Source of the DNA: Catellatospora citrea
GTDB lineage: Bacteria; Actinomycetota; Actinomycetes; Mycobacteriales; Micromonosporaceae
Direction of reading: 5' to 3'
Length of the DNA: 64,000 bases
Assembly (NCBI RefSeq): GCF_003610235.1
Contig: NZ_RAPR01000001.1
Span: forward strand, 5,208,001 to 5,272,000
The translations under genes were made by a program, and so were the position numbers. Positions 19,025-21,207 of this stretch are shown piece by piece; position 1 is the first letter of the stretch; every line of letters begins with the position of its first letter. The notes below the pieces were generated by a model that saw only the letters and a program-made list of their open reading frames with translations, made no database searches and was not told where the DNA came from.

Positions 19025-19999
19025 TCAGATCAGGTCGCGGCGGCGGAAGTTCGCGAACGCGGCGGCGAGCAGGGCGGCCGTGAGACCCGCCAGGACCATG
19101 CCGCCACTGAGCCGTGTGATCACCAGGTCGCCCGAGCCGTCCAGGCCGGACCAGTACTTCAGGTCGCCGTTGACGAAGGCGGACAGGTAGCTGGACAGGA
19201 AGTACGGGTCGTACGGCAGCATGCCGCCGATCTCGAAGACGATGCGCCCGCCCGCCTCCCAGACCAGGAAGTAGCCGACCGCGATGCCCAGCGCGGCCGC
19301 CGTGTGCCGGGCTAGCGTGGCCAGCGCGAAGGCGCACGCCGCGGAGGCCGTCGCGAGGGCTATGCCGCGCCCGCACAGCCCGGCGAGCTCGGCCCAGAAG
19401 GCCGCGTCGACGTCGCCGGTCCAGCCCGAGGCGTACGCGATCAGATAGAACACACCCACGTAGAGCACCGTGAACAGGGTGGAGAACAGCGCGACGCTGC
19501 CGGTCAGCGCGGCGAGCTTGGCGCCGAGGACCGGGGCGCGCTGCGGTCGCCACAGCAGCAGGTTGGTGATGCCGCCGCTGCTCATCTCGGCCCCGATGAA
19601 CGACGCCGCGATCACGAAGGCGAAGAAGCTGAGATACACCGCCAGGAAGACGGTCAGGCCCCGGATCTCCTGCTCGAACACGAAGGCGTCCTCGAGGTAG
19701 TGCCAGGCCCGGACGTCGGCCGGACTGCCCGCGGCGTCGCAGCCCTCGGTGAACGTGTCCTCCGCGGCCTCCCTGTCCTGGCGGAACGCCGCCTCGCAGG
19801 TGGCCTTGAACTCGATCAGGCTCGCGCGCCGTTCCGCAGCGGACCGTTCCGCGGATGCCCAGGCCTGGCTGCCGGGGCGCGCCGAGCTGGCCAGCGTGGT
19901 CGCGGCGGTGACCCCGAAGACGGCGAGCAGGCCGATCACCAAGACATGGGTGAACCGCCGCGCCAGCAGCCGACTCACCTCAGCACGCACCAGATTCAT
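19025..19999 (-). CDS. ABC-2 type transporter permease
   Basis: A 324-residue membrane protein with about six helices: one near residues 15-38, then a large extracytoplasmic loop (about 40-110) with two Cys, and five more between 110 and 315. The segment FIGAEMSSGGITNLLLWRPQR is the amphipathic coupling-helix region typical of ABC-2 permeases. With the ATPase encoded upstream it would form an exporter; the substrate is unknown (lipids, peptides or antibiotics are usual). The ATG overlaps the stop codon of the third minigene (ATGA), so its translation is likely coupled to the upstream array. Confidence 0.85.
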   Translation of the reverse strand: MNLVRAEVSRLLARRFTHVLVIGLLAVFGVTAATTLASSARPGSQAWASAERSAAERRASLIEFKATCEAAFRQDREAAEDTFTEGCDAAGSPADVRAWHYLEDAFVFEQEIRGLTVFLAVYLSFFAFVIAASFIGAEMSSGGITNLLLWRPQRAPVLGAKLAALTGSVALFSTLFTVLYVGVFYLIAYASGWTGDVDAAFWAELAGLCGRGIALATASAACAFALATLARHTAAALGIAVGYFLVWEAGGRIVFEIGGMLPYDPYFLSSYLSAFVNGDLKYWSGLDGSGDLVITRLSGGMVLAGLTAALLAAAFANFRRRDLI

Positions 20000-20067
20000 G
20001 CCTTCTCCTCGCTTCGCTCGTCGGCGGCATTACCGAGCCTGTCGATTCGCTCGCGGAGCTCGCTCAT
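19996..20067 (-). CDS. Minigene 3: 23-residue peptide, tandem copy, coupled to the permease
   Basis: ATG 20067 opens a 23-codon frame, MSELRERIDRLG followed by NAADERSEEKA, whose TGA overlaps the permease ATG by the ATGA tetranucleotide. GAGGAG stands 5-6 nt before the next start. The DNA is identical to minigene 2. The peptide is highly charged and could form one amphipathic helix. Whether it is functional or merely re-initiation spacing is unknown. Confidence 0.5.
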   Translation of the reverse strand: MSELRERIDRLGNAADERSEEKA

Positions 20068-20135
20068 GCCTTCTCCTCGCTTCGCTCGTCGGCGGCATTA
20101 CCGAGCCTGTCGATTCGCTCGCGGAGCTCGCTCAT
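20064..20135 (-). CDS. Minigene 2: 23-residue peptide, tandem copy
   Basis: ATG 20135 opens the same 23-codon frame as minigene 3, with identical DNA. Its start overlaps the stop of minigene 1 and its stop overlaps the start of minigene 3, both as ATGA. The upstream ribosome site is GAGGAG. Only its preservation as an open frame in an unbroken ATGA chain supports it as coding. Confidence 0.5.
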   Translation of the reverse strand: MSELRERIDRLGNAADERSEEKA

Positions 20136-20203
20136 GCCTTCTCCTCGCTTCGCTCGTCGGCGGCATTACCGAACCTGCTGATTCGCTCGCGGAGCTCGCT
20201 CAT
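20132..20203 (-). CDS. Minigene 1: 23-residue peptide, tandem copy, coupled to the ATPase
   Basis: ATG 20203 overlaps the ATPase stop (ATGA) and has GGGGAGGAG just upstream. The peptide MSELRERISRFG then NAADERSEEKA differs from copies 2 and 3 at two residues (Asp to Ser, Leu to Phe). All three base changes alter the protein while leaving length and stop intact. Confidence 0.5.
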   Translation of the reverse strand: MSELRERISRFGNAADERSEEKA

Positions 20204-21207
20204 GCTTGCTCCTCCCCGCGCGTGTCGAGGTCGATGATGTTGTCCGCGGGTGGGCGGCGGCGCGTCGGCACCGCGACCTGCGGAGGGGCGTCGGGGACGG
20301 GCCGGGTGCCAGTGAGGTCCAGGAAGACGCTCTCCAGGTCGGGCGTGAGCGGGGTGAGTTCGGTCAGCCAGAGACCGGCCCGGCCGAGCGCCTCGCTGAT
20401 CGCGGCCGGGCCGCTGACGCCGCCGACGAACAGGGCGCCGTCGGCCGTGCGCACCGTCGCGCCCGCCGCCAGCAGCAGCTGCGCGGCCTGCTCGGTGTCG
20501 GCGACCCGGACCAGGTGCTCGCCGGTGTCGTGCCCGGCCAGCACCACCGAGACGGGGCCGTGGGTGACCCGCCGGCCGCGGTCGATGATGGTGACCGAGT
20601 CGCATACCTGCTCGATCTCGGACAGCAGGTGGCTGGATAGCAGCACGGTGACGCCCTGTGCGGCGAGGTCGCTCATCAGGGTGCGCATGGCGTGGATGCC
20701 GGAGGGGTCCAGCCCGTTCGCGGGCTCGTCCAGGATCAGCAGTTCCGGCTGCTTGAGCAGGGCGGACGCGACGGCGAGCCGCTGGCGCATGCCGAGCGAG
20801 TACACCCTGACCGGCTCGTCGGCGCGGTCGCGCAGCCCGACCGTGGTCAGCGCCTCGTCCACCCGGCCGCGGGGCAGCCCGCCTGCGGTGGCCAGCAGCT
20901 GGAGGGTCTTGCGCCCGCTGAACGGGGTGAAGAAGGCCGGGCTCTCCACGATCGCGCCGACCCGGTGGGCCACCTCGCCGAACCGGGCGCTGGGCGTGTC
21001 CAGGATCCGCATCTCGCCCTCGTCGGGCCGCAGCAGGCCGAGCAGCGTACGCAGCGTGGTGGTCTTGCCCGAGCCGTTGGGCCCGAGGAACCCGTGGACC
21101 TGGCCCTTCTCGACGTACATGTCGAATCCGTCGAGCGCGGTCTTCTCATCGCGCCACAGGCTGTGGAACGTCTTGCACAGCCCGCTGATCTCGATCACGG
21201 CGGTCAC
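20200..21207 (-). CDS. ABC transporter ATP-binding protein (ABC-2 exporter)
   Basis: A 335-residue ATPase. Walker A is GPNGSGKTTT (about 43-52), the signature YSLGMRQRLAVASALL near 140, Walker B LLILDEPANGLDPSG near 160 and the switch His in SSHLLSEIEQV near 195. The C-terminal 110 residues form the accessory region seen in CcmA/DrrA-type exporters, ending in a Pro/Arg-rich tail. GTG 21207 has GGGGGAGG upstream. The stop overlaps minigene 1 by ATGA, so ATPase, three minigenes and permease form one coupled chain. The region 21208-21345 to its right is a divergent promoter region. Confidence 0.9.
   Translation of the reverse strand: MTAVIEISGLCKTFHSLWRDEKTALDGFDMYVEKGQVHGFLGPNGSGKTTTLRTLLGLLRPDEGEMRILDTPSARFGEVAHRVGAIVESPAFFTPFSGRKTLQLLATAGGLPRGRVDEALTTVGLRDRADEPVRVYSLGMRQRLAVASALLKQPELLILDEPANGLDPSGIHAMRTLMSDLAAQGVTVLLSSHLLSEIEQVCDSVTIIDRGRRVTHGPVSVVLAGHDTGEHLVRVADTEQAAQLLLAAGATVRTADGALFVGGVSGPAAISEALGRAGLWLTELTPLTPDLESVFLDLTGTRPVPDAPPQVAVPTRRRPPADNIIDLDTRGEEQA

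Follow-up and report, generated by a model that had tools for sequence, protein, structure and literature searches.

Why should three tandem stretches of 23 codons lie end to end between the ATPase and permease genes of an ABC transporter in Catellatospora citrea? The array lies in a window of 64,000 nucleotides (the whole stretch of DNA analysed here; contig NZ_RAPR01000001.1, positions 5,208,001 to 5,272,000), and an earlier note on this DNA had described it as a chain of translationally coupled mini-open reading frames (mini-ORFs) that could serve the exporter. We find that the repeated unit is dispersed among many gene pairs, and the idea of a device particular to this exporter is not borne out. 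Units mostly lie at start codons, preserve the reading frame, are missing from many of the corresponding sites of relatives and have a middle that evolves neutrally. Altogether, these sequence comparisons make it probable that each unit is a copy of a small mobile element, dispersed through the genome and mostly 68-74 bp in length, that keeps the gene chain coupled.

The ATPase, the three mini-ORFs and the permease are all encoded on the minus strand, a point missing from the earlier note; Pfam matches bear out the exporter genes named there.

20200..21207, minus strand: ABC transporter ATPase, ORF with Pfam PF00005 (E 3e-27); its TGA overlaps the ATG of mini-ORF 1 (ATGA)
20132..20203, minus strand: unit and mini-ORF 1, transcribed first, MSELRERISRFGNAADERSEEKA, with ATGA at each end (read from the sequence)
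20064..20135, minus strand: unit and mini-ORF 2, MSELRERIDRLGNAADERSEEKA (read from the sequence)
19996..20067, minus strand: unit and mini-ORF 3, same as unit 2; its TGA overlaps the permease ATG (read from the sequence)
20141..20146, minus strand: GAGGAG, ribosome-site-like, at the end of unit 1 ahead of the unit 2 start (read from the sequence; conserved across the family)
20073..20078, minus strand: GAGGAG at the end of unit 2, ahead of the unit 3 start (read from the sequence)
20005..20010, minus strand: GAGGAG at the end of unit 3, ahead of the permease start (read from the sequence)
20181..20203, minus strand: proposed 5′ hairpin of unit 1 (unit positions 1-23), from family covariation
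20113-20135 and 20045-20067, minus strand: proposed 5′ hairpins of units 2 and 3, from family covariation
20132..20168, minus strand: proposed 3′ hairpin of unit 1, ending with the next ATGA, GAA triloop, from family covariation
20064-20100 and 19996-20032, minus strand: proposed 3′ hairpins of units 2 and 3, from family covariation
19025..19999, minus strand: ABC-2 type permease, ORF with Pfam PF12679 (E 4.3e-11); its ATG lies within the last ATGA

A repeat finder gives a period of 68 with 3.2 copies and a 96% match at 19996-20214, and the sequence confirms the arrangement described before: the ATPase stop, three 68-bp units and the permease start are joined by four ATGA overlaps (minus strand, 20203-20200, 20135-20132, 20067-20064 and 19999-19996), each mini-ORF comprises 23 codons plus TGA (72 nt), and unit 3, in transcription order, has the exact sequence of unit 2, with unit 1 the one that deviates. 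Each unit does contain the GAGGAG that had been assigned to it as its own ribosome site, but the motif precedes the next start codon; unit 1 is served by GGGGAGGAG, which lies ahead of its start within the 3′ end of the ATPase gene. The proposed 5′ hairpin begins with the upstream ATGA and has tandem G.A pairs and a TCC triloop, and in the 3′ hairpin of the window units six of the seven outer pairs form.

A dispersed family at stop/start overlaps

The 3′ core of the unit occurs at 90 places in this genome with up to three mismatches (35 forward, 55 reverse) and its reversed-pattern control at 0, so the window array is not a product of chance; the 5′ pattern occurs at 76 places, its control at 22. 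With up to two mismatches, the core is present in 76 of 200 Micromonosporaceae genomes, and the 11 Catellatospora genomes have between 1 and 117 places each, this one 87. All 78 stretches with the exact core in a species-level genome collection, from which this genome may be omitted, are titled Catellatospora. A class-wide sample yielded the core in 7 of 394 genomes (reversed pattern, 1 place), namely this genome, two from Micromonosporaceae (two places apiece) and four others (a single place apiece). The core was absent from 25 sampled genomes of genus g45, taken to be Mycobacterium, and the three-unit array had no match among the plasmids and phages searched as carriers.

Units with both halves recognisable number 61 from the 90 core places (place C1 8509918 was left out), broken or mis-registered ends included (L063, L071, L082 and the first units of L014 and L087). 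They form 51 arrays in this genome, 42 single, 8 double and 1 triple. The 3′ end of the array is the start codon of a downstream coding frame in 44 of the 51, compared with 0 and 3 for positions one or two bases off, and the earlier question of whether the flanks are gene starts can be answered with mostly. The 5′ end is the stop codon of an upstream coding frame in 32 (controls 1 and 0), a further 6 arrays connect to the upstream gene through an additional in-frame mini-ORF, and the direct gene-unit-gene arrangement is found in 29. Coding was judged by composition in the sense direction only; an antisense coding-like frame lies downstream in 13 of the 51. The bases around the overlap are biased, with GC before and G after (44 unit flanks compared with 137 ordinary overlaps), and a target longer than ATGA was rejected, this bias being all that was found.

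Measured from overlap to overlap (n=61), unit length is 71 bp in 29 units, 68 in 21, 74 in 6, 77 in 1, and 66, 69, 70 and 72 in 1 each. A chain of −4 overlaps needs a length of 2 modulo 3, and this is found in 57 of the 61 units (54 of the 56 with TGA at both ends) and in 85 of 86 units from other Catellatospora loci. The first 24 nt and last 30 nt are conserved, and 18-27 nt between them are variable. When own units lacking TGA at either end are dropped, 142 units remain (56 own, 86 from others), 139 of them in frame. The variable middles of these 139 contain 0 in-frame stops, compared with 21.7 ± 4.2 in shuffled middles (minimum 10 in 500 shuffles) and with 18 and 35 in the other two frames.

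Selection on the unit was gauged from nonsynonymous and synonymous differences (pN, pS) in 19 equal-length in-frame ortholog pairs. The pN/pS ratio is 0.96 in the middle (pS 0.22), 0.57 in the 5′ part (pS 0.12) and 0.36 in the 3′ part (pS 0.10, pN 0.04), and the start of the downstream gene in the same pairs has a pS of 0.23, uncorrected for indels. Silent positions in the unit ends are mostly near-fixed, the CGN site excepted, and positions 11-13 and −8/−9 are free in amino acid. The ratio in the middle, together with ends held at silent sites, therefore indicates that the frame is kept and the middle peptide is not, a pattern that favours coupling over peptide function and that lends the previously proposed chain of translational coupling support from the sequence side, with the mini-ORF frame under selection. 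Eroded mini-ORFs in C. methionotrophica (genome G109; L211, L221 and L229) keep the frame and the 3′ ATGA with little other unit sequence left.

Several variants and relatives were seen alongside these units. A frame-broken 69-bp unit is common to this species (L013, C1:1672401) and C. sichuanensis (L184), and at L013 the 3′ ATGA starts no coding frame in this genome. Loci L047, L072, L075, L033 and L069 of this genome hold variants that share the 5′ end and diverge at the 3′ end; in some, a long stem surrounds the start codon (CATGCCGGAAC..GTTCCGGCATG in L047, CATGCGACGAAC..GTTCGTCGCATG in L072). Other Micromonosporaceae genera have 89-bp relatives (L106, L108 and L109), also 2 modulo 3, whose 5′ hairpin contains the stop/start overlap (GTGACCGG..CCGGTCAC in L106/L108; ATGACCGG in L109). 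Seven genomes of genus g4 have a unit-like 3′ end upstream of a 159-codon frame (L112, L114-L118 and L120); the leader at these loci is conserved and not unit-like.

Proposed hairpins with covarying pairs at the unit ends

Base pairs covary in two proposed hairpins per unit, and this covariation takes in the start and stop codons. The 3′ stem was examined at seven positions in 239 distinct sequences, the 5′ arm lying 23 nt from the 3′ end arm. Watson-Crick pairs make up 73% at offset 0 and 15-44% at other offsets, and 1226 pairs form, compared with 1155 ± 6 when the 3′ arms are redealt (maximum 1175 in 1000 deals). Compensated stem types include TCACGCC/GGCGTGA, TCAGGCC/GGCCTGA, TCATCGT/ACGATGA, TCACGCT/AGCGTGA and TCACGCG/CGCGTGA; counting against the stem, of 21 sequences that end in GGCGTGA, just 3 have the complete TCACGCC arm. 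The pairs of the 5′ hairpin are R1-Y23, T2-A22, 5-6/18-19 and 9-10/14-15, with tandem G.A steps between them and a free triloop. Across 154 sequences, chance matches included, arms 1-6 form 471 Watson-Crick pairs, compared with 409 ± 8 (maximum 441), and slid versions reach at most 284. Units of other genera have Watson-Crick pairs in place of the G.A steps (ATGACC/GGTCAT in L091, GTGACC/GGTCAC in L110, GTGACCGG/CCGGTCAC in L106/L108).

Covariation also links position 23 to the base that opens the left overlap. The counts for 45 of the 46 first-in-array units of this genome are A-T 30, A-C 3, G-T 2 and G-C 10 (Fisher 5e-6), and those for 51 other units are A-T 43, A-C 2, G-T 0 and G-C 6 (1.6e-6), tests that are inflated by relatedness among copies. 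The hairpins may act in DNA, in mobility, or in RNA, where the next AUG sits in the 3′ stem; the two may serve mobility, conceal the next start codon until the unit has been translated, or both. These data raise a more specific possibility, to which we give only tentative weight: the unit may be a single-strand DNA element, non-autonomous and directed to stop/start overlaps by base pairing, whose hairpins also act as switches. The 5′ hairpin would then include the DTGA of the target, in which the first base (A or G) would pair with position 23 (T or C) and contribute to the selection of ATGA or GTGA sites. The 3′ hairpin would hold the next start codon, and the hairpin switches would make the next gene dependent on translation of the mini-ORF.

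Hairpin covariation and nucleotide-level constraint in the ends are also what a plain dispersed DNA hairpin repeat would present, akin to the repetitive extragenic palindromes (REPs) and tolerated at gene junctions, with an incidental ORF and unselected coupling. We consider this unlikely, since without translation one would not expect lengths of 2 modulo 3 in 57 of 61 and 85 of 86 units together with a stop-free middle, and the eroded mini-ORFs of C. methionotrophica retain frame and ATGA. The earlier note had pictured a plain repeat as one scattered in all frames without ATGA overlaps; the dispersal is there, but most of the units analysed keep their frame at overlaps.

Empty sites and mobility

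If the unit is a mobile element, its sites may be found vacant in related genomes. We picked 16 sites from the 29 with coding frames on both sides and compared them in C. paridis (genome G087) and C. methionotrophica, reading the junctions by eye (L010 has no match in the latter, and the C. paridis match for L037 was left out). A bare ATGA or GTGA overlap without a unit is present in at least one of the two congeners at 12 of the 16 sites; at the remaining 4, the relatives found carry a unit, an eroded unit or other sequence. At L026, C. paridis reads ...gaggagaacgcATGAGCAC where this genome reads ...gaggagaacgcATGA followed by a unit ending in ATGA and then GCAC. At L029, C. methionotrophica has GTGA, and this genome has GTGA to the left and ATGA to the right of the unit, as though the element had landed on the 3′ side of the target overlap and supplied an ATGA of its own.

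The window site itself was compared in 11 Catellatospora genomes, in which the ATPase and permease orthologs are joined by a −4 overlap or via units. It is empty (GTGA) in 5 of the 11 and has only a unit-like tail on the ATPase in 2; a short unit of 26 bp is present in C. paridis, a single 71-bp unit in each of C. sichuanensis and C. coxensis, and the three 68-bp units in C. citrea. The copy number, suspected earlier to vary, does so between species. In species with units or remnants at this site (L199-L204), the ATPase C-terminus reads (G/S)EE-A, as if unit sequence had been absorbed into the protein. At the C. methionotrophica ortholog of site L034 (L223), the frame of the upstream overlap runs on into the downstream gene as an N-terminal extension.

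Could the units have spread without transposition, with unit-like gene ends undergoing homologous exchange or gene conversion and arrays formed by slippage? Upstream flanks can indeed resemble the unit 3′ end (the RSEE-A tail at the window site in several species; L026), and the flank bias GC-ATGA-G resembles a unit-unit junction. No unit-like sequence is evident, however, at several empty sites (L019, L031 and L037 among them), and insertion there is exact; we regard this route as improbable. Still less probable, in our judgement, is a regulatory relay that tunes subunit ratios at particular operons and is kept for that function site by site: the copy number at the window site differs and the frame is under selection, but site occupancy is often unconserved among congeners, as the 12 empty orthologs attest. 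The conserved functional 23-residue helical peptide suggested earlier, for example an exporter subunit, is very improbable, for although the DERSEEKA and MSERSERI ends recur, the frame is kept and the ends alone have pN/pS below 1, the middle stands at 0.96, the ends are near-fixed at most silent positions too (again not the CGN site) while positions 11-13 and −8/−9 change amino acids freely, and the unit is found between many different gene pairs.

We favor the model of a mobile element that keeps genes coupled and envision a scenario in which it inserts directly 3′ of an ATGA or GTGA overlap, between co-directional genes and in the sense direction. Each copy would bring a mini-ORF that begins on the target overlap and ends in a new ATGA, and a GAGGAG ribosome site 5 nt before the new start; its length of 2 modulo 3 would keep the genes joined by −4 nt overlaps. 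Ribosomes finishing the upstream gene would re-initiate first on the mini-ORF and next on the gene that follows, and the element would survive insertion because ribosome site, start codon and coupled frame are regenerated. Copies losing the frame or gaining a stop would mostly be purged by selection, with the peptide middle nearly free to drift, and tandem duplication could then yield arrays like the three units of the window. Transposition as the mechanism, re-initiation and a near-neutral effect on expression are the parts of this scenario that we infer from sequence comparison.

Several observations weigh against this model. By the composition test, a coding frame at the 3′ end is lacking in 7 of the 51 arrays, and an upstream gene, direct or chained, in 13. 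Two in-frame units have an internal stop, nearer the 5′ end, and the copies share descent, so that the shuffle controls overstate significance and their figures are descriptive, not exact probabilities. At L025, 3 nt are missing from the filled site, with GTGA changed to ATGA, and L090 has GTGA in both empty relatives and ATGA on both sides of the filled site; empty sites could in principle be losses. Nearest-neighbour folding finds no unusual stability (z from −0.14 to +0.78 for seven sequences, −1.01 in a further run), and the mean z over 134 units (DNA +0.72, RNA −0.18) is likewise unexceptional; standard energy models may give too low a score to GNA loops and tandem G.A pairs, and the hairpins are neither proved nor excluded thereby. 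No mobilising enzyme was identified among the candidates examined, which comprised the Y1 transposase only, other movers not having been searched. The Y1/RAYT transposase was rejected as the mover, the presence of its gene not tracking copy number: PF01797 occurs in 6 of the 11 Catellatospora genomes, the own copy has an internal stop, and none was found in genome G100 despite 63 core places, although draft genomes may miss genes.

Relation to known elements

Small elements that insert at gene starts have precedent in the mycobacterial interspersed repetitive units (MIRUs). Passages of a 2025 review describe MIRUs as apparently mobile, inserting at start codons and carrying an ORF coupled at −4 nt (PMC12548453). 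According to portions of two further papers, the senX3-regX3 gap holds three identical 77-bp MIRUs in H37Rv and a 53-bp form in CDC1551 (PMC4213456), with a copy number that varies between BCG strains (PMC9392950). The range given in these passages is M. leprae and the M. tuberculosis complex only (PMC4213456) or many mycobacteria (PMC12548453).

The Catellatospora units resemble MIRUs, as so described, in being short, mobile-looking repeats at start codons with an ORF coupled at −4 nt; by our arithmetic, 77 and 53 are 2 modulo 3 like the lengths here. Tandem copies vary in number in both, in Catellatospora at the species level only. Mini-ORFs with ATGA/GTGA flank overlaps and dispersal in the orientation of the downstream gene, features by which membership was assessed, are both found. 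The clade differs, the unit core being absent from the 25 g45 genomes, and each Catellatospora unit has two covarying hairpins, a feature recorded on the Catellatospora side of the comparison. We conclude that the family seems to work like MIRUs and is probably a separate one, set apart by core search and description rather than by MIRU sequence. A search for MIRUs at 13 response-regulator-type loci of one 4.4-Mb g45 genome found none, and exact 25-mer repeats at 40-109 nt spacing occur at 1 of the 13 (L258); the repeat there, direct and 55 bp long, is placed between two genes with a response-regulator-type gene alongside, and it is not ATGA-linked.

REP and REPIN elements are short, dispersed, hairpin-forming repeats of variable copy number sited in non-coding intergenic DNA. 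The units share the hairpin feature by covariation in both halves, though folding energies give it no support; unlike REPs, they bridge stop/start overlaps in frame, and unlike in REPIN-RAYT systems, presence of a Y1 gene does not track their copy number. Membership of the REP/RAYT group was thus rejected on transposase and on location. Elements of the IS200/IS605 family insert 3′ of a tetranucleotide, which stays at the left end and pairs with internal bases. The likeness here is one of logic only, with insertion 3′ of a tetranucleotide retained at the left and an internal pairing base. As to insertion 3′ of a fixed tetranucleotide with no duplication of the target, the sites give a mixed picture: L029 has its GTGA kept on the left and ATGA on the right, and L025 and L090 are not simple fits. 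The difference is that the unit contains no transposase and that Y1 was not found in the congener with 63 core places.

Enterobacterial RU, as portrayed in parts of one report (PMC2759123), are likewise small mobile repeats carrying ORFs, but they are intergenic, resemble miniature inverted-repeat transposable elements (MITEs), measure 103-168 bp and belong to enterobacteria. GCGAAGC and other GNA loops form very stable mini-hairpins, studied as in-vitro fragments in the portion of the work consulted (PMC4686876). The Catellatospora core GCGNAGC, with its free N, fits the d(GCGNAGC) motif; in contrast to those fragments, this N is also a silent codon position, energy models add no stability and the hairpin is predicted only.

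No report of such a family in Micromonosporaceae was found among the open-licence papers that the searches listed. What we describe looks like a known kind of behaviour in an apparently new family and clade, in which the covariation between target base and internal base is the unexpected feature. This covariation, in which the first base of the target changes with a base inside the element, bears on questions also posed by MIRUs, namely what moves them and how start codons are found. Insertions have arisen naturally by the dozen, and at 12 of the 16 sites tested a sister species has the empty counterpart; they amount to a ready-made experiment on the tolerance of translational coupling, and the family suggests that selection keeps the frame and the ribosome site and largely ignores the middle of the peptide.

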